A stretch of 13,732 nucleotides of DNA, taken from the NCBI GenBank assembly GCA_947631345.1, contig CANRKW010000020.1, positions 1 through 13,732 on the forward strand, given 5' to 3'. Made by a program: the position numbers and the translations under genes. The stretch comes from an uncultured Bacilli bacterium. Lineage in GTDB: Bacteria; Bacillota_I; Bacilli_A; RF39; UBA660. Each line of letters begins with the position of its first letter. Positions within the stretch are counted from its first letter, which is position 1. Below, one piece after another: positions 5,793-13,108 of the stretch. The notes beneath the pieces are model-generated. The model had not been told where the DNA came from and made no database searches. It saw only the letters and a list, made by a program, of their open reading frames with translations.

Positions 5793-5820
5793 AAAAAGTC
5801 ATATGGAGGTGAAAAACACA

Positions 5821-8148
5821 ATGATTAAAAGTAACTTACCAGTGATTTTATTAAAAAGTCTTGTGCTTTTACCTCTTGAAGAATCTAGGGTAGAACTAAA
5901 TAACGATATAAGTAAAAAAATAATAGAAATAGCAGAAAAAAAATACGACAAATATCTTTTAGTAGTACCCCCACTTAATGATTTAGAATTAAGCCCAGAC
6001 ACGACTGATATACCTAAAGTAGGTGTAGTAGCTAAAATATCTAGTAAAATAGTACTGCCTAATAAAAACTTACGAATAGTGCTTACTGGTATAAAAAGAG
6101 TTAAAGTATTAAGTTATTTCAATTTTAAAGAAGAAAATGACATATTAGAAAGTGTTATAGTAAATTATAAAGAAGAAGAATACAGTATAATAGAAGAAAC
6201 CGCGCTTTACAGAAAATTAATGCAAGAATTAGAAAAATACATAAGTAAAAATCCATATATATCTAACTCTATTATAAATACATTAAGAGATTTAACTGAT
6301 TTAGAAAAACTTACTGATAAAATATCTACATTTATGGTACTAAATAATGAAAAAAAACTAGATTTAATGTTAGATATGAGTAAAACTAGTCGAACAAAAA
6401 AACTTATAAAAGAAATGAATGTAGAACTTGCTGTTTTAGAACTTGAAAATAAAATAGAAGAAGAGTTAAAAGTTAATTTAGATAATATGCAAAAAGAAGT
6501 TATTCTAAAAGAAAAGTTAAAAATAATAAAAGAAGAATTAGGAGAAAAAGATACAAAGACTTCTTTTATTGAAAAGATAAAAGAAAAACTAAATGATGGG
6601 TATCCTATACATATAAGAAGAAGAATAGATAGTGAACTTATAAAATGCAGTACAATAAATGAGTCTTCTCCAGAACTTGTAGTAACTTATAATTATATTG
6701 AAACTCTTACTTCTATTCCTTTTGGAATATACACAAAAGAAGAAAAAGACTTAAGGAAAATAAAAGAAACACTAGATAATAGTCATTATGCTTTAAATGA
6801 TGTTAAAATGCGTATAACTGAATATATTGCAGTAAAATCAAGAAACAACTTAACAAACAGCCCGATTATTTGTCTTGTGGGTCCTCCTGGGGTAGGTAAA
6901 ACAACACTTGCTGAATCTATTGCAATGTCTTTAAACAAAAAATATGCAAAAATATCTCTAGGTGGAATAAACGACCCTGCAGAATTAATTGGCCACAGAA
7001 AAACTTATATAGGCGCGTCCCCTGGTAAAATAATAACTTCCCTTATAAAAGCAGGAAGTATGAATCCAGTAATACTTTTAGACGAAGTTGACAAAATAGC
7101 AGAATACTATAAAGGAGATCCAGCTTCTTGTTTACTAGATATATTAGATATAACTCAAAATAAAACGTTCATAGATAATTACATAGAAGAAATGGTTGAC
7201 TTAAGTAAAGTAACTTGGGTATTAACAGCAAATGATTTGAGCAAAATTCCTTATGTATTATTAGATAGACTAGAAATAATAGAAGTACCAAGTTATTTAG
7301 ATCACGAAAAACTAATGATAGCCAAAAATTATTTAATTCCTTTAATAAAAAAAGAAAATGGAATAGAAAATATAGATATAGAAATACCAGATAATATAAT
7401 AAACAAAATAATACAAAGATATACTAAAGAAAGTGGTGTAAGAAATTTATATAGATTAATATCTAAAATAATAAGAAAGATAATAACTAATTATAGTTTA
7501 GAAAATAAAGAGCTAACTAATATAACTATAAATAATATAGAAGAATATTTAGGAAAAGAAACATTTAAAGAAAGAAAAATAGACTCTCTTATAGGCCTTA
7601 CAAATGCTCTTGCTTATACACCTTATGGAGGAGAAGTATTAAGTATAGAAGTAACTTCTTATGAAGGAGAAAGTGAATTTATAACAAGTGGAAGCCTTGG
7701 AAATGTACTAGAAGAAAGTATAAAAGTTGGTGTAAGTTATATAAAATCCAATGTAGAATTATTTAATATAGATAAAACTTTATTAAATAAAACAATACAT
7801 ATAAACTTTAGAGAAGGTGGTATTCCAAAAGATGGACCATCAGCAGGATGTGCAATAACTACAGGAATATTAAGTTATTTAAAAAAGCAAAAAATACCAA
7901 ATAATATCTCATTTACTGGTGAAATAACATTACTAGGTGATATTCTTCCAGTAGGTGGCTTAAGAGAAAAATTATCTTGTGCGATAAAAAATGGAATAAC
8001 AACAGTTTATGTTGCAATAGATAATTATACAGATGTATTTGAATTAGATGATGAAATAAAAGATAGATTAAATATTAAGTATGTAAATAATTATATTGAA
8101 ATATATAATGATTTATTTAAGGAGGAAAACGAAAATGAAAAGAATTGA
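5821..8148 (+). CDS. lon: ATP-dependent Lon protease
   Basis: This cytosolic AAA+ serine protease degrades misfolded and regulatory proteins. The 775-aa product has the LonA layout: an N-terminal substrate-binding domain (5-175, beginning LPVILLKSLVLLPLEE), a long coiled-coil helix (about 200-245), and an AAA+ module with Walker A GPPGVGKT (354-361), Walker B VILLDEVD (417-424) and sensor-2 Arg in GVRNLYR (539-545). The S16 protease domain (about 590-765) carries Ser674 in KDGPSAG and Lys717 in GGLREK, an intact Ser-Lys dyad. An in-frame ATG at 5803 lies within the ribosome binding site GGAGGTG (5805-5811), so ATG 5821 is the better start (9-nt spacing). Length matches B. subtilis LonA. Its last 14 nt overlap the next gene. 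The downstream spoVID- and ysxE-like genes echo the Bacillus lonA region, where ysxC and the hem genes lie in between. Confidence 0.98.
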   Translation: MIKSNLPVILLKSLVLLPLEESRVELNNDISKKIIEIAEKKYDKYLLVVPPLNDLELSPDTTDIPKVGVVAKISSKIVLPNKNLRIVLTGIKRVKVLSYFNFKEENDILESVIVNYKEEEYSIIEETALYRKLMQELEKYISKNPYISNSIINTLRDLTDLEKLTDKISTFMVLNNEKKLDLMLDMSKTSRTKKLIKEMNVELAVLELENKIEEELKVNLDNMQKEVILKEKLKIIKEELGEKDTKTSFIEKIKEKLNDGYPIHIRRRIDSELIKCSTINESSPELVVTYNYIETLTSIPFGIYTKEEKDLRKIKETLDNSHYALNDVKMRITEYIAVKSRNNLTNSPIICLVGPPGVGKTTLAESIAMSLNKKYAKISLGGINDPAELIGHRKTYIGASPGKIITSLIKAGSMNPVILLDEVDKIAEYYKGDPASCLLDILDITQNKTFIDNYIEEMVDLSKVTWVLTANDLSKIPYVLLDRLEIIEVPSYLDHEKLMIAKNYLIPLIKKENGIENIDIEIPDNIINKIIQRYTKESGVRNLYRLISKIIRKIITNYSLENKELTNITINNIEEYLGKETFKERKIDSLIGLTNALAYTPYGGEVLSIEVTSYEGESEFITSGSLGNVLEESIKVGVSYIKSNVELFNIDKTLLNKTIHINFREGGIPKDGPSAGCAITTGILSYLKKQKIPNNISFTGEITLLGDILPVGGLREKLSCAIKNGITTVYVAIDNYTDVFELDDEIKDRLNIKYVNNYIEIYNDLFKEENENEKN

Positions 8149-8374
8149 TTTAATAAAAAGATTATTTGAAGAACCTATAAAAATATATGGATATGAAGTA
8201 TACGAATGGATAGATATGGTTAAAAGAGTTAGAACATTTGTAGTACTAGATGATGAATTAAACACAGTAATTGATTTAGAAGAAGTAGGTATATATTCAA
8301 AAGAATTAATAGACTTTTTAGAAAGTAAAGGCTATAAAGAAATTAATAAAGCAAAACTTCTTACAAAAAGATAA
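8135..8374 (+). CDS. Small hypothetical protein coupled to lon
   Basis: A 79-aa protein beginning MKRIDLIKRLFEEPIKIYGYEVYEWIDMV. I do not recognise it. It is soluble and charged, with predicted alternation of helix and strand (RTFVVLDDELNTVIDLEE looks like a two-stranded beta hairpin) and a C-terminal helix ending in lysines. It has no Cys. AAGGAGG (8119-8125), 9 nt upstream, decides the ATG at 8135 over an earlier in-frame ATG at 8096. The start lies 14 nt inside the lon reading frame, so translation is probably coupled to lon and the two are made together. A role in assisting or regulating Lon is possible from position only. Confidence 0.7.
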   Translation: MKRIDLIKRLFEEPIKIYGYEVYEWIDMVKRVRTFVVLDDELNTVIDLEEVGIYSKELIDFLESKGYKEINKAKLLTKR

Positions 8375-8402
8375 TCATATAAAATAGCTCCTTTCATATA
8401 AT
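8375..8402 (+). promoter_or_regulatory. Candidate sigma-E-type (or sigma-A) promoter of the spoVID-like gene
   Basis: TCATATA (8375-8381), 13 nt, CATATAAT (8395-8402). Against the Bacillus sigma-E consensus as I recall it (KMATATT / CATACAnT, about 14 bp apart), this is 6 of 7 and 7 of 8 positions. The same -10 contains a perfect sigma-A TATAAT (8397-8402), but a sigma-A -35 17 bp upstream (ATCATA) is poor. Either way, initiation is expected near 8409. spoVID is a sigma-E gene in B. subtilis. Confidence 0.45.
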
Positions 8403-8415
8403 TAATTGAAAGGAG
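8388..8415 (+). promoter_or_regulatory. Hairpin that sequesters the Shine-Dalgarno of the spoVID-like gene
   Basis: CTCCTTTCA (8388-8396) pairs perfectly with TGAAAGGAG (8407-8415) across a 10-nt loop. The right arm is the ribosome binding site of the gene starting at 8423. There is no T-run after the stem, so it is not a terminator on this strand. RNA entering from the lon unit would carry the whole hairpin; RNA begun inside it near 8409 would not. Confidence 0.7.
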
Positions 8416-8422
8416 AATTATA

Positions 8423-9031
8423 ATGAATAATATTATTGAATTTAAAAAAGACTGCATAATGAAAACAATGGTATCAGAAATAACAGATATAAGTTTAACA
8501 CACGACTATAAAATATTATCTGATAGAATCGAGGGTTATTTTGATGTAACAGGAGAATACAAAATAACAAAATCTAGTATAGAAAAAGAAGAATTTATGT
8601 ATACTATACCTTTTACTATAAGTTTATCTAGTTTAATAGATACATCTACTATAAATCTAACTATACATGACTTTAAATACACTATTGATAAAGATGTCTT
8701 ACATTTAAAAATGGCTCTTAAAATGGAATATGAAGAAATAAAAGAAGAAATTAAAGAAACTAAAGAAGAAGAAATTAAAGAAGAAGTAATAGAAGATATA
8801 ATAGATACAGAAAAAACAGAAGAATATGTAAAAAATATGACTTTAGAAATGGACCAAAATAAAGAGTATTCAAAATATAAAATATACATTATGAGAGAAG
8901 AAGATACAATAGAAAGTGTTGCTATAAAATATAATACATCTTTAGATATATTAAAAGAATATAATGATATAGAAAATATAAAAGTAAAAGATAAGATAAT
9001 AATTCCTATTATAGATGAAAAACAAGATTAG
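8423..9031 (+). CDS. spoVID: SpoVID/SipL-like spore coat morphogenesis protein (SPOCS + LysM)
   Basis: SpoVID (SipL in clostridia) links the coat basement layer to the forespore surface during encasement. This 202-aa version shows a single N-terminal SPOCS/DUF3794-like domain (residues 1-101; ITDISLTHDYKILSDRIEGY then FDVTGEYKI parallels SpoVID's 'isLdP.i.i.e....v.i.G.l.LtGEY'), an acidic Glu/Lys-rich linker (103-145) and a C-terminal LysM (152-196; IYIMREEDTIESVAIKYNT ... NDIENIKVKDKIIIP). Known SpoVID/SipL proteins exceed 500 aa, so this is a minimal form. GAAAGGAG lies 7 nt before ATG 8423 and is buried in a hairpin. The next gene overlaps by 17 nt and is YsxE-like, matching the spoVID-ysxE pair of B. 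subtilis. The symbol is assigned from domain order plus context. A general LysM envelope protein is the main alternative. Confidence 0.75.
   Translation: MNNIIEFKKDCIMKTMVSEITDISLTHDYKILSDRIEGYFDVTGEYKITKSSIEKEEFMYTIPFTISLSSLIDTSTINLTIHDFKYTIDKDVLHLKMALKMEYEEIKEEIKETKEEEIKEEVIEDIIDTEKTEEYVKNMTLEMDQNKEYSKYKIYIMREEDTIESVAIKYNTSLDILKEYNDIENIKVKDKIIIPIIDEKQD
8732..8785 (+). repeat. Low-complexity GAA/AAA tract encoding the charged linker
   Basis: Near-repeats of a GAAGAA-AT(A/T)-AAA unit encode EEIKEEIKETKEEEIKEE (residues 104-121) between the SPOCS-like and LysM domains. The tract could vary in length by slippage; its in-frame register would be kept if units change by three. Confidence 0.6.
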
Positions 9032-9866
9032 TAAAATTAGATTAATAGGTAATGTTAAAATAATAGAAACACCTATAGAAAAAAGAGTAGTAAAAGCAAA
9101 AACTAAAGATTTGGAACCACTTTTTGAATATTTGAAAGAAAGAGGGTTAGATATAACTCCTCAAATTTTAGAAAGTACAAATACTGAAATAACTTACAAA
9201 TATTATGAAGAAAATAAAACATTTCAAATTGATAAATCATATGACTTAATTAAATTAGTAAGCACTCTTCATTATAAAACAGCCTATTATAAGCCAGTAA
9301 GTAGAAAAAAATACAAAGATATATATAATACTCTTATAGATAATGTAGATTACTTAAAAGAATATTATAATGATTTAATAACTAAAATAGATAACACTTT
9401 ATTTATGAGTCCTAGTGAATACTTACTTGCAAGAAATTATACAATCATAAATACAAGTTTAATATATATAGAGAAAGAATTAAATGCTTGGTATAATTTA
9501 GTAAAAGACAAAACTAAAGAAAGAGTATCTATTGTACATAACAATTTAAAATTAAATAATTACATTAAAGGGGAAAAAGAAGTTTTAACTAGTTGGGACA
9601 ATTTTTTGGTTGATACACCTATACTTGATTTATATAAATTATACAAAAATGAATATAAAAATATAGATTTTGCTTCACTTTTAAAAGAATATAATAATAC
9701 TTTTAAACTCACAAAAGAAGAAGTAAAACTATTATTTATTCTAATAAGTATGCCTATTAAATTAGAAAGTACAAAAGATGAATACGAAACAGTTCGTGAA
9801 GTAAAAAGAGCTTTAGATTATATTTATAGAACAAATAAAGTAATAACATCAAGCATTTTTAATTAA
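9015..9866 (+). CDS. ysxE: YsxE/CotS-like spore-coat kinase-fold protein, probable pseudokinase
   Basis: The 283-aa protein follows the aminoglycoside-phosphotransferase-like fold of the CotS/YsxE coat proteins. Its catalytic loop region reads VHNNLKLNNYI (174-184), where active relatives have 'HgDlh.gNil'; the metal-binding region reads LTSWDNF (191-197) for 'IDwD..'; and 'DTPILDLYKLY' (200-210) matches the family's 'p..Dla.l'. The catalytic Asp is replaced (H175-N176-N177) while N181 and D195 remain, so phosphotransfer is doubtful. The N-lobe (50-90) is short and lacks a clear nucleotide loop. The start overlaps the spoVID-like gene by 17 nt and has no ribosome binding site of its own, so translation probably depends on re-initiation. 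The spoVID-ysxE order is that of Bacillus. Its 3' end overlaps a minus-strand gene by 18 nt. The symbol rests on context and motif order. Confidence 0.65.
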   Translation: MKNKISKIRLIGNVKIIETPIEKRVVKAKTKDLEPLFEYLKERGLDITPQILESTNTEITYKYYEENKTFQIDKSYDLIKLVSTLHYKTAYYKPVSRKKYKDIYNTLIDNVDYLKEYYNDLITKIDNTLFMSPSEYLLARNYTIINTSLIYIEKELNAWYNLVKDKTKERVSIVHNNLKLNNYIKGEKEVLTSWDNFLVDTPILDLYKLYKNEYKNIDFASLLKEYNNTFKLTKEEVKLLFILISMPIKLESTKDEYETVREVKRALDYIYRTNKVITSSIFN

Positions 9867-10043
9867 TTGATATATTAAAAGACTTATTAAAACTAAAAGA
9901 ATAAATACATTAATTCTAGTAGGTAAAACTAAAGTAAAAATAGCTTGCCAAAATACTAAAACAACATTAACTATTAAAATAATCACATTAAATAGTTTTT
10001 GATTATGTTTATATAATTCTTTTAAATCATTAATTCTATTCAT
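9849..10043 (-). CDS. Small two-TM membrane protein, unknown
   Basis: A 64-aa protein: MNRINDLKELYKHNQ, then a TM helix (about 17-38, containing FWQAIF), a short PTRIN turn and a second TM helix (44-60). I do not recognise it. Evidence that it is real: AGGTG (10049-10053, read on minus) 5 nt before the ATG, and a well-spaced promoter (TTAACT-17-TATACT). The -10 region CATATACT is also close to a sigma-E -10, but no matching -35 is seen. It lies antisense to any read-through from the ysxE-like gene and overlaps its last 18 nt. It is the only gene between the coat pair and the pseudopilins. Confidence 0.6.
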   Translation of the reverse strand: MNRINDLKELYKHNQKLFNVIILIVNVVLVFWQAIFTLVLPTRINVFILLVLISLLIYQLIKNA

Positions 10044-10059
10044 AAATTCACCTATTAAT

Positions 10060-10088
10060 AGTATATGTAAAGTACTTAAATAAGTTAA
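10060..10088 (-). promoter_or_regulatory. Promoter of the small membrane protein (minus)
   Basis: On the minus strand TTAACT (complement of 10083-10088), 17-bp spacer, TATACT (complement of 10060-10065), then 6 nt to the AGGTG ribosome binding site. The leader would be about 10 nt. Confidence 0.55.
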
Positions 10089-10089
10089 C

Positions 10090-10116
10090 AGACTTCTAAA
10101 TTTGAAGTCTTTTATT
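10090..10116 (+). terminator. Rho-independent terminator between the coat genes and the pseudopilins
   Basis: Perfect 7-bp stem AGACTTC (10090-10096) / GAAGTCT (10104-10110) with a 7-nt loop and TTTTATTT behind it on the plus strand. It would stop plus-strand transcripts that run past the ysxE-like gene and antisense through the minus-strand gene. Confidence 0.75.
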
Positions 10117-10129
10117 TATGTGTATTATC

Positions 10130-10138
10130 TGATATAAT
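10130..10138 (+). promoter_or_regulatory. Extended -10 promoter of the pseudopilin cluster
   Basis: TGATATAAT, a perfect extended -10 with no clear -35. Six nucleotides later comes AGGAG (10145-10149), the ribosome binding site of the first gene. Confidence 0.6.
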
Positions 10139-10155
10139 TATATTAGGAGTAGAAT

Positions 10156-10317
10156 ATGAATAAAAAAGGTTTTGTTGAAGTAGTAATAGTTTATACATTT
10201 TTAATTATCTTTTTATTAGTAATGACATCTGTATTAAATAGTTTAACTAATAGAAATACATTAATAAATACATTAGTAGAAGATGTTAAAAATACATTAA
10301 ATGGAGATAAAATATGA
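10156..10317 (+). CDS. 53-aa prepilin-like protein, first gene of the pseudopilin cluster
   Basis: The short ORF reads MNKKGFVEVVIVYTFLIIFL, continues hydrophobic to about residue 27 and ends in a polar helix (NRNTLINTLVEDVKNTL) with no globular head. The KKGF start and hydrophobic helix look like a class-III-type leader cut between G5 and F6 by a prepilin peptidase. The conserved Glu, however, is at mature position +3 (E8), not +5. It may be a minimal pseudopilin or a TM partner of the pilins. AGGAG lies 6 nt upstream of the ATG. The stop overlaps the next start as ATGA (10314-10317), so the genes are translationally coupled. Reading is uninterrupted and promoter and ribosome binding site are good, supporting a real gene despite its size. 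Confidence 0.7.
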   Translation: MNKKGFVEVVIVYTFLIIFLLVMTSVLNSLTNRNTLINTLVEDVKNTLNGDKI

Positions 10318-10769
10318 AAAAGGGTTTTGTTTTTGTAGAAACATTAGTAGTATTATCAGTAGTAACTGTAAGTATTGTAAGTTTATATGGGGTATACTTA
10401 AAAATAAGCACTGATATAGAAAAAAGAGAATACTATGATAATGTAAGTGATTTATATAAAACAAATATAGTTAGAAATCTTATAAATATAAATAAAGTAA
10501 ATGAATTTATAGAAATAAATAAAAATAATTGTGAAAGTTTTATGGATAGTAAATGCACTAATATATTAGAAAGTCTTAATATTGATAATGTTTATATAAC
10601 TGATAAAAAAGTAAGCTTAATATTAGAAGATAAAAATATAGATAATACATTAAAAGAATATCTTAAAACAATAAATACAAGTTCTAATACTTTATATATA
10701 ATAATTAACTATAAAAATAATGGTCACAATTACTATGCAAGTCTTAAATATAAGGAGTCTAATATATGA
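10314..10769 (+). CDS. Type II/IV pseudopilin, second gene
   Basis: A 151-aa protein starting MKKGFVFVETLVVLSVVTVS. It has a short basic leader, a G4|F5 prepilin peptidase site with Glu at mature +5 (E9), a 20-residue hydrophobic helix and then a polar head. Such proteins are assembled from the membrane into a pilus or pseudopilus. The head is Asn-, Lys- and Ile-rich and contains C73 and C81, which could form a disulfide loop outside the cell. No further family (for example ComGD or ComGE) can be named with confidence. It overlaps both neighbours by 4 nt (ATGA), which indicates a tightly coupled operon. The prepilin peptidase, ATPase and platform protein needed for assembly are not in the window. 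Confidence 0.8.
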   Translation: MKKGFVFVETLVVLSVVTVSIVSLYGVYLKISTDIEKREYYDNVSDLYKTNIVRNLININKVNEFIEINKNNCESFMDSKCTNILESLNIDNVYITDKKVSLILEDKNIDNTLKEYLKTINTSSNTLYIIINYKNNGHNYYASLKYKESNI

Positions 10770-11209
10770 AAAAAAATGGTTTTACACTTATAGAAATAAC
10801 TATAAGCATAACTCTTTTATCAGTAATAATGGTATTCTTATTTAAGTATTTGAATTTAGTTTTAAAAGATGAAACTAATATAACTGATAAAACTAAAATA
10901 TTATTAGATCAAAATATAATATCTAAAATAATAAATGAAGATATAAATAATAATGGAATCAAAGATGTAAATTGTTCTAGTAATAGTTGTGATATAACTT
11001 TACTAAATGATGAAACACGTCTAATAGAAATAAATGAAAACTTAATTAACTATAAAGATACTACTAATAATATAACCCTATTAAAAAGAAAAACTATATT
11101 AAATTACAATATAACATTAAAAAATGACATAACTAATTTATATCAAATAATACTTGCTTCATCTGATAAAAAATACAGAATAGAAGTAACTTATTATAAA
11201 ACTGATTAA
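10766..11209 (+). CDS. Type II/IV pseudopilin, third gene (ComGF/PulJ-like)
   Basis: A 147-aa protein with the textbook prepilin N-terminus MKKNGFTLIEITISITLLSV: cleavage between G5 and F6, N-methylated Phe at +1, Glu at +5 (E10), then a TM helix to about residue 34. The head contains C70-x4-C75 within a beta-type segment. An early helix (47-62) followed by several strands recalls ComGF or PulJ minor pseudopilins, but this is a loose match. It is coupled to the previous gene by an ATGA overlap. Its final 51 nt overlap the 3' end of ylbJ on the other strand; both reading frames are intact, and no terminator separates them. Confidence 0.82.
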   Translation: MKKNGFTLIEITISITLLSVIMVFLFKYLNLVLKDETNITDKTKILLDQNIISKIINEDINNNGIKDVNCSSNSCDITLLNDETRLIEINENLINYKDTTNNITLLKRKTILNYNITLKNDITNLYQIILASSDKKYRIEVTYYKTD

Positions 11210-12058
11210 CAAAATTAAGAATTTGTTTTTCAATATTAATTTTTTGTTAATATTATAATCACTTAAAATACTAAATGCTTGAGATATAATAGAAATAGAA
11301 CTAAAATTAATTATAGATGAAGTAAGTACAAATCTAATATTTAAAGATATATTTACTTCATTTATTTTGTTTATTCCACTAGTCATTTCTAAAATAGCTG
11401 ATAACACATTTTCTATTAAAATAGGTAAATCTATAAAATTAAAAATAATATTAGAAATAATAGTAAAAATAGTCATTGTACCTAAAATAATTATTAAAGT
11501 ATATACATTATTAATAATAGAAGACTTTATAAAACTAAAGAAACTTTCACTTTTAATATTTATAGGTATATTCACTTTAGTTAGTTTTTTATAATAAAAT
11601 AGATAAACAATTATATTAGATATATAAGTAATAAGTAAAATTGTAATTCCTAATTTTATACTACCAAATATTAAAAAGCCTACACTTGCTATTACAAACA
11701 TTGGATTTGGAAAAAAACTTGTACTTAAAATAATACTTGCATCTTTACAAGAAATTATGTTTTTATCTAATAATTCTTTAATATATTTACTATTACTTGG
11801 AAGTCCTGAAAAAAGACTCATAAGAAATATATAACTATATTTAAACTTAAACACTTTATTTAAAAAATAAATGTAATTATACTTTATTAATATATCTCCT
11901 AATATAAAAAAAGGAAACAAACTAGGTAAAACATTATTTATAAAAACGTTCAAACTATATTTAACACTATCTATAATAATAGTTGGATTAAATAAAAATA
12001 CAAATAAAATAAAACTTAAAAATAAAAAAGTTACACTATATTTAATAATTTTCATCAT
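11159..12058 (-). CDS. ylbJ: YlbJ-like sporulation integral membrane protein
   Basis: The 299-aa protein has about eight TM segments and the two repeated 'gate' (nucleoside-recognition) modules of the YlbJ/SpmA type. Visible marks are NVLPSLFPFFILGDILI (42-58), SGLPSNSKYIKELLDK (84-99; family: 'sGyP.GAk......'), FFPNPMFVIASVG (115-127; family: 'SNPlFi...v...') and, in the second half, LEMTSGIN (223-230; family: 'LEvt.G'). In B. subtilis YlbJ is needed for efficient sporulation and is expected to move a small solute across a membrane. B. subtilis YlbJ is about 400 aa, so this is shorter. The GAAAGG site (12065-12070, minus) favours the first ATG of ATGATG. It is divergent from ylbL, close to the ylbJ-ylbL neighbourhood of Bacillus. 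Its 3' end overlaps the last pseudopilin. Confidence 0.8.
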   Translation of the reverse strand: MMKIIKYSVTFLFLSFILFVFLFNPTIIIDSVKYSLNVFINNVLPSLFPFFILGDILIKYNYIYFLNKVFKFKYSYIFLMSLFSGLPSNSKYIKELLDKNIISCKDASIILSTSFFPNPMFVIASVGFLIFGSIKLGITILLITYISNIIVYLFYYKKLTKVNIPINIKSESFFSFIKSSIINNVYTLIIILGTMTIFTIISNIIFNFIDLPILIENVLSAILEMTSGINKINEVNISLNIRFVLTSSIINFSSISIISQAFSILSDYNINKKLILKNKFLILLISFIISYFYSVFFIR

Positions 12059-12100: not shown

Positions 12101-13108
12101 TTGACTAATAAAATATATGAAAGTGTAAAAAGATTTATAAAAAATAATTATAAATTTTTAATAGTATATATACTTTTAATAAGTTCATTTTTTATAGAAC
12201 TTGATTATGAAATATATAGTCCAGGTGGGCTTGGTAATTTAGAAAAAAGAATAAATGTAGAAGATTCATATGAAGAAGAAGGTTCATTTAATTTAACATA
12301 CGTAAGTGCTAAAAGAGGTTCTCTTCCTATTGTCTTATTAAGTTATATAATTCCTTCTTGGGATTTAGTTAGTTTAGATAACTCAAGAATTGAAAACGAA
12401 GATTATGATGAAATACTAGAAAGAGGAAGAATTGACTTAAATAATGTTAATGAAATAGCTTTGAAAGTTGCATATGAAACAGCTAATTTAGATTATTCTA
12501 TAACTAAAAATGACCTAACTGTTTATTATGTTTTTGAGGATGCTGATACAAATTTAAAAGTAGGTGACGTACTTCTTGAAGTAGAAGGACAAAAAATAGA
12601 AAATATGGATGACTTAAGTGTAGTTTTAGATAATAAAGAAGTAGGAGATACTGTTAAATTTAAAGTAAAAAGTGATGGAAAAACAAAAGAAAAAACTGGT
12701 GTTTTATATGAAAGTGAAGGAAAGAAAATAATAGGGATGTATCTAACTAATGTAATAAAAGTAGAAACTGATAGAAAGATAACTTTTAAATATAGCCCTA
12801 ATGAAAGTGGTTCTTCAGGTGGACTTATGAGTACATTAGAAATCTATAATAGAATTACACCTAAAGACATTACTAAAGGCCTTACAATTGCTGGAACTGG
12901 GACTATGGAAATAGATGGTACTGTAGGTGAAATTGGTGGAGTAAAATATAAATTAATGGGCGCAGTTAAAAAGCACGCGGATGTATTTATAGTACCAGTT
13001 AATAATTATGAAGAAGCACTTAAAGTAAAAAAAGAAAATAACTATAAAATAAAACTTATAAAAGCAGAAAACTTTACCCAAGTATTAGAAAGTTTAGAAA
13101 ACTTATGA
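12101..13108 (+). CDS. ylbL: PDZ-containing Lon-like serine protease YlbL
   Basis: The 335-aa membrane-anchored protease has its catalytic part predicted outside the cell. A basic N-terminus precedes one TM helix (18-33). A PDZ domain (about 140-205; NLKVGDVLLEVEGQKI) is followed by an S16 Lon-type proteolytic domain (225-335). Ser239 in SGSSGGLM stands where YlbL has GPSAGLM, and Lys284 in IGGVKYK matches the Lon 'GG..eK'; the dyad appears intact although the Pro and Ala around Ser are changed. 'LTIAGTGTMEIDGTVGEIGG' is a strong family signature. There is no AAA+ domain, as expected. Translation starts at TTG 12101: no ATG or GTG occurs in frame before the TM helix, and GGGTGAAG precedes it. 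It is the first gene of a two-gene unit and divergent from ylbJ. Confidence 0.93.
   Translation: MTNKIYESVKRFIKNNYKFLIVYILLISSFFIELDYEIYSPGGLGNLEKRINVEDSYEEEGSFNLTYVSAKRGSLPIVLLSYIIPSWDLVSLDNSRIENEDYDEILERGRIDLNNVNEIALKVAYETANLDYSITKNDLTVYYVFEDADTNLKVGDVLLEVEGQKIENMDDLSVVLDNKEVGDTVKFKVKSDGKTKEKTGVLYESEGKKIIGMYLTNVIKVETDRKITFKYSPNESGSSGGLMSTLEIYNRITPKDITKGLTIAGTGTMEIDGTVGEIGGVKYKLMGAVKKHADVFIVPVNNYEEALKVKKENNYKIKLIKAENFTQVLESLENL

Follow-up and report, generated by a model that had tools for sequence, protein, structure and literature searches.

In the 13,732-nt stretch of DNA analysed here (the window), the boundary between the lon transcription unit and a spoVID-like/ysxE-like operon is probably marked by a sigma-E promoter nested in a hairpin that sequesters the Shine-Dalgarno sequence (SD) of the spoVID-like gene. 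The left arm of the hairpin, CTCCTTTCA (8388..8396, + strand), pairs with the right arm, TGAAAGGAG (8407..8415, +), across a loop of 10 nt in the RNA fold (TATAATTAAT, 8397..8406, +). The right arm contains the SD AAAGGAG (8409-8415) of the ATG at 8423, and the putative -10, CATATAAT (8395..8402, +), has its first two bases in the left arm and the remainder in the loop. Both the pairing of the 9-nt arms and the place of this SD within the right arm had been reported in an earlier, sequence-only reading, and their coordinates proved exact when re-read from the sequence.

Polymerase running in from lon and the 79-aa open reading frame (ORF) that follows it would produce an RNA carrying both arms; this long RNA would fold, bury AAAGGAG and leave the spoVID-like gene untranslated. 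During sporulation, polymerase with sigma-E would initiate near 8409, past the left arm, and the short RNA, beginning at the SD, could not fold and would be translated. The SD thus pairs with a segment (8388-8396) that precedes the predicted start at 8409 and would be found only in RNA started further upstream.

Gene context and collection of relatives

The upstream unit contains lon (ATP-dependent protease La; 5803..8148, +), which is matched by NCBIfam TIGR00763 (691.8 bits, cut-off 608) and by the Pfam Lon domains, and the 79-aa ORF (8135..8374, +), which overlaps the end of lon by 14 nt. This ORF was listed from a TTG at 8096, and the ATG at 8135 was adopted; it had no match in Pfam or NCBIfam. 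The earlier reading was right in naming lon as the upstream unit, but the direct neighbour of the gap is the ORF, so that read-through would come from lon and the ORF together. The hairpin and the promoter sit in the 48 nt that separate the stop codon of the ORF (8372-8374) from the ATG at 8423.

The spoVID-like gene (8423..9031, +) encodes a protein of 202 aa with a C-terminal LysM domain (Pfam LysM, 24.4 bits, cut-off 20.9). The model TIGR02907 (spore_VI_D) matched its C-terminal part only, at E 4e-6 and 26.6 bits against a cut-off of 169.85. The start Met is kept in 29/29 aligned sequences. Although the family shares a highly conserved N-terminal domain (EFKKDC...), the Pfam model SPOCS_spoVID-N fits only 3 of the 29 homologues, the protein of the window not being among them. 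The label “spoVID-like”, already used in the earlier reading, is a fair one on the basis of the LysM domain, the place of the gene and its ysxE-like neighbour. This neighbour, a ysxE-like spore coat gene (9015..9866, +; NCBIfam TIGR02904, E 1.7e-19, below cut-off), overlaps the end of the spoVID-like gene, and the two probably form one operon. An intrinsic-terminator-like hairpin lies past it (10090..10110, +) and was the sole site of this kind in a terminator scan of 7500-10500; the scan accepted loops of 3-8 nt only, and hence the SD hairpin with its 10-nt loop could not be listed. Further downstream are a ylbJ-like gene (11159-12058, - strand; TIGR02871, E 4e-33, below the curated cut-off) and a SepM-like S16 protease with a PDZ domain (12101-13108; NF041438, 149 bits, cut-off 200). 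The joint occurrence of spoVID-like, ysxE-like and ylbJ-like genes in the window suggests that the host is a spore former.

Relatives of the gap were collected by several routes. A homologue search gave 590 proteins, 120 of which were listed, and an alignment of 29 rows including the window was built from these. Scanning of genomes yielded 12 loci, and matches were obtained in 165 of the 243 genomes of the family (the best 70 of these 165 matches were read), and further scans gave matches in 7 of 9 genomes in the genus of a related genome, G003, and in 1/1, 1/2 and 5/6 genomes of three other genera. No relatives were found in viral contigs. From the 92 sequences (the window and L001-L091), L009, L011, L086 and L087 were dropped because they had no usable start, and nine duplicates were removed from the remaining 88 leaders (eight being one genome reached by two routes, and L090 being the same as L089), which left 79 distinct leaders. 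L040 and L077 lack a recognised SD and were classed as “none” in the leader classification. A clade of 13 leaders (the window, L001-L007, L018, L019, L088, L089 and L091) was chosen by protein similarity. In a protein tree built by a quick method, its members fall into a starred set of 14, the fourteenth being L020, which has another architecture. A blastp search for homologues of the 79-aa ORF found them at the corresponding position in L001-L007, and the remaining 71 leaders searched gave none; in L018, L019, L088, L089 and L091, lon is directly upstream of the spoVID-like gene. The gap from the upstream stop to the start codon is 45-53 nt in all 13 clade leaders.

A putative sigma-E promoter inside a conserved stem

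Directly after the stop codon of the 79-aa ORF lies TCATATA (8375..8381, +), a putative -35 of the sigma-E type, and the left arm of the hairpin takes up part of the promoter spacer plus the two leading bases of the -10. Scoring used the full sigma-E consensus and spacing. As a motif, TCATATA-13-CATATAAT agrees with the sigma-E type (ATA-type -35, CATA-type -10, ~13-15 nt between them) and is, judged by its letters, most likely a mother-cell promoter used by sigma-E. The box at 8395-8402 had previously been read as a TATAAT element. Its position across the end of the left arm and the loop stands; the sigma-E type fits the box better than a vegetative one and strengthens the idea of a nested promoter. 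A scan of 7500-10500 for plain sigma-70 promoters gave 27 sites against 28.4 in shuffles and did not list the box, and this candidate was rejected. The predicted transcription start at 8409 (+) derives from promoter geometry, at the customary start-to--10 spacing (7 nt past the last T of the -10), and the predicted 14-nt leader from 8409 (+) is AAAGGAGAATTATA. With the start placed 7 nt past the -10, the mRNA is predicted to begin at AAAGGAG or 1-2 bases earlier in 13/13 clade leaders.

The promoter signature extends well beyond the window. Of the 79 leaders, 65 carry CATAnnnT between 11 and 42 nt upstream of the start, compared with 39 of 793 G003 genes; a conserved -10 in the loop was one of the checks named in the earlier reading. 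The best -35-like 7-mer scores 9 or 10 of 10 in 62/79 leaders (23% in letter shuffles), with a spacing of 13-14 nt in 61 of these 62; within the clade, 12 of the 13 leaders reach 9 or 10 and L006 scores 8. The placement of a promoter within the arms is thus a matter of motif and conservation (CATAnnnT and the ATA-type -35). An excerpt of a study on Bacillus subtilis names spoVID among the coat genes activated by sigma-E (PMC517825). For Clostridioides difficile, another report describes very similar -10 elements for sigma-E and sigma-K, which are distinguished by ATA (sigma-E) or AC (sigma-K) in the -35, and gives CATATAAT as the -10 element of a promoter of the sigma-K type (PMC3789822).

The conservation of the stem in relatives was a check named beforehand, and 13/13 clade leaders keep the pairing. 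In all of them the left arm lies in the promoter spacer, a CATA-type -10 enters the loop and AAAGGAG reaches the right arm. GGAG is paired in 13/13 separate folds, and the preceding AAA is unpaired in L019, L088 and L091. Shuffles of the left side match the nested stem in at most 2 of 200 cases for each clade leader, and in 1/200 for the window. Outside the clade, 11 of 66 leaders have a nested stem by the same criteria, some probably by chance. The stems of L026, L028 and L057 (by these criteria) and of L047 and L071 (by fold only) lie elsewhere on the tree and are clearly different.

Paired changes in the two arms were tabulated by folding each leader separately and indexing the pairs by distance from the SD. 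Among the 13 clade leaders, a two-sided change was observed at offset +4 from the first G of GG, where nine leaders have A-U, L006 has G-C and L018 has U-A. This position is unpaired in the window and L001, and falls just outside the 9-bp stem of the window. Over 18 leaders (the clade and L026, L028, L047, L057 and L071, which were added because they show the stem and so bias the table towards it), two-sided changes were also found at +2, +3, +5 and +6. Those inside the 9-bp stem of the window come from L026, L047, L057 and L071, which were picked for showing the stem; the right arm is constrained there by the SD, which leaves little room for covariation. MAFFT alignments (A2 and A3) were set aside for these counts, since a variable number of bases between the left arm and the -10 makes the arm slide in them.

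An alignment-free comparison was made by swapping arms between leaders. Over the 79 leaders, each leader's own arms pair better than swapped arms, with a z of -6.4 and 0/5000 permutations as good, uncorrected for relatedness. Likewise uncorrected, the 13-leader clade gave 32/5000 and the 66 other leaders 65/5000. In the eight closest leaders the own arms (-15.4) and swapped arms (-15.5) were not discriminated (2934/5000 permutations), because the arms are nearly identical in all of them.

Strength of the hairpin and competing readings

The folding energy of 8375-8450 is -13.8 kcal/mol, compared with -6.4 ± 2.3 kcal/mol for shuffles (z -3.2; 3 of 200 as stable). The window is AT-rich and has many inverted repeats: the settings used gave 153 pairs, with the SD hairpin 20th among the 25 longest, so that a bare repeat says little. 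It is the exact coincidence of the right arm with the SD, together with the conserved arrangement, that on the available sequences raises the hairpin above chance. No known RNA family from Rfam matched the window at the gathering score.

How rare such masking is was gauged in G003, where the survey covered ~1.06 Mb of a ~1.4 Mb related genome with genes defined by simple ORF calls. The energy needed to open the SD of the spoVID-like orthologue is 10.2 kcal/mol, the second highest of 792 gene calls (median 1.3; 99th percentile 7.7), and the window, computed in the same way, gave 10.45. The 13 clade leaders range from 5.3 to 14.4 in this frame, the lowest value being that of L001. Sigma-E-like promoter matches were found at 13 G003 genes, for seven of which an SD-opening energy was obtained: 10.2 for the spoVID-like gene and 0.5-3.7 for the other six. 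Under a stricter criterion of a contiguous stem, 5 of 514 G003 genes qualify with 2.4 expected from shuffles, and wide use of SD-masking hairpins in this genome is unsupported. Among these five, the spoVID-like gene ranks second by stem score, and it alone has CATA between its arms. That the SD and a pyrimidine-rich promoter spacer merely happen to pair would agree with the abundance of inverted repeats in the window and with the near-expected number of strict stems in G003. Such a coincidence is improbable in view of the stem in 13/13 clade leaders, the arm-swap result over 79 leaders with the two-sided pair changes, and the rank of the G003 orthologue.

In the proposed masking mechanism, the long and short RNAs should differ in the accessibility of the SD, and the computed energies do. 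In the 13 clade leaders, 6.9-12.3 kcal/mol are needed to free GGAG in the long RNA, and 0.0-1.1 kcal/mol suffice in the short RNA. For the window, the values are 9.7 kcal/mol for 8300-8470 and 1.0 kcal/mol for 8409-8470, or 10.4 and 0.0 in a short frame. The burial of the SD would also suit an RNA thermometer acting on the long transcript, which the sequence-only reading had ranked as the weaker alternative. The cost of freeing GGAG in 8300-8470, however, falls only from the above 9.7 kcal/mol at 37 °C to 9.2 at 42 °C and 8.2 at 50 °C, and the conservation of the promoter in the loop has no role in that model. The thermometer was rejected on these energies and is hardly credible.

A dimeric repressor or activator would fit arms that lie 10 nt apart and overlap the -10, and the inverted repeat could then be an operator in DNA. 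This too is very unlikely: the arm sequences differ among relatives, the distance between the arms varies, and 8 of the 13 clade leaders (L003, L006, L007, L018, L019, L088, L089 and L091) have at least one G-U pair in the stem. G-U pairs keep RNA pairing and break DNA symmetry, which favours a function in RNA.

A more substantial competitor, although still the less likely reading, is that the hairpin is primarily an intrinsic terminator of the lon unit, into which the SD was recruited through genome compactness with masking as a by-product. In 12/13 clade leaders, that is, in all 12 relatives, 6-7 T occur in the 9 nt after GGAG, and A-T pairs extend the stem outward. In addition, a terminator-like hairpin sits immediately before the -10 in 27 of the 79 leaders (class B). 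In the window, no T run follows the stem (AATTATAAT, 4 T of 9) and the hairpin was not recognised as an intrinsic terminator, but the 9-bp stem still covers the SD in full, with the high SD-opening energy given above. Termination and masking are, moreover, compatible in the relatives, where the T-rich tract past the right arm means that the same hairpin may also halt through-going polymerase. We therefore regard masking of read-through RNA, with possible termination in the relatives, as the better account.

Class B leaders (including L022, L033, L039, L041, L048, L065, L070 and L075), which come from more distant relatives, place the promoter against a separate terminator-like hairpin. Judged by eye, several of them have a possible -35 in the loop or close to it, with the T run acting as spacer and the -10 coming next. 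Stop and start signals thus seem to be overlapped in two different ways at one gene boundary, by the nested hairpin and by the class B arrangement. A hairpin or terminator is present in 44 of 65 leaders with a close co-directional neighbour versus 7 of 14 others (Fisher p 0.23), so such a neighbour was no predictor of either.

Other sporulation genes and known systems

The fourth highest SD-opening energy in the G003 survey (8.9) belongs to a sigma-factor gene (L150:12950-13723, minus strand) that fits SigG best (NF006071, 359.4 bits, cut-off 372; TIGR02850, 342.1 bits, cut-off 457). TIGR02850 matches 20 of 24 relatives searched, none above the cut-off. Among 16 sigG-like leaders with a placeable start (from L153-L171), the SD-opening energy is 8.4-16.1 in 11 and 0.0-4.3 in five. 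By eye, all 11 high-energy leaders have GTATAAA, GAATAAA or GCATAAA, read as a GTATA-type -35, before the left arm of an SD-masking hairpin, an arrangement similar to that of the spoVID-like gene. An AT-rich possible -10 is seen in their loops, and the upstream gene differs between genomes. The upstream gene ends, by eye, like what we take to be a sigma-E gene in 7 of the 16 leaders; three of these seven belong to the 11 that have the hairpin. A yqfC-like gene of G003 (L142:12855-13094, +; TIGR02856, E 5e-6, below cut-off) shows the class B order, a terminator and then CATATAAT (GATGCTTAAAAAAGCATCTTTTTTCATATAATT). It is conceivable, although we lean slightly against it, that a ~48-nt cassette of promoter, SD-masking hairpin and, in relatives, terminator has been reused at spoVID-like and sigG-like genes and, in the looser form of a promoter set against a terminator, at a yqfC-like gene, where it would prevent expression from read-through RNA and give a clean start at the nested promoter.

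If the proposed mechanism is correct, a device documented in a phage and proposed for sigG would extend to a spore-coat-like gene, with comparative evidence. A small genome would then pack the signals for silence and start, and in relatives also for stop, into ~50 nt at a boundary between housekeeping and developmental genes. It would also supply a search rule: look for hairpins that have the SD as their right arm and a sigma-factor -10 in their loop. A literature search limited to open-licence papers found no such leader at spoVID, which is weak evidence of absence.

The principle itself is already known, being documented for bacteriophage T4 gene e and proposed for B. subtilis sigG. It also operates at the transposase genes of IS10 and IS50, where transcripts that come in from outside fold so that the start is masked, unlike those from the element's own promoter; these are mobile elements without developmental control. 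The T4 gene e (lysozyme) logic, which the earlier reading had offered as the parallel, follows the same principle: according to the part of the source available, early read-through RNA hides the SD, with a reported 100-fold effect (PMC3014915). There, however, a phage late sigma factor sets the timing, whereas the present gene would be under a developmental promoter of the chromosome, with a terminator possibly built into its hairpin in relatives.

The closest parallel is instead the proposal for B. subtilis sigG (spoIIIG), in which, as far as an excerpt of the report describes it, translation of read-through RNA is blocked by a hairpin that RNA started at the gene's own promoter is unable to form (PMC5942855). 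In both cases a sporulation gene lies downstream of an earlier-expressed unit (spoIIGA-sigE in B. subtilis). As described in that excerpt, the B. subtilis read-through hairpin has 20 or more base pairs, in contrast to the 9-bp stem with the -10 in its loop found here; its promoter is used by sigma-F and sigma-G, whereas the spoVID-like gene has a sigma-E-type promoter; and the local sigG transcript has a second, short hairpin at the ribosome binding site. What may be new in the present case is the threefold overlap, in the relatives, of a promoter with an SD mask and a terminator, along with its repeated use at sporulation genes.
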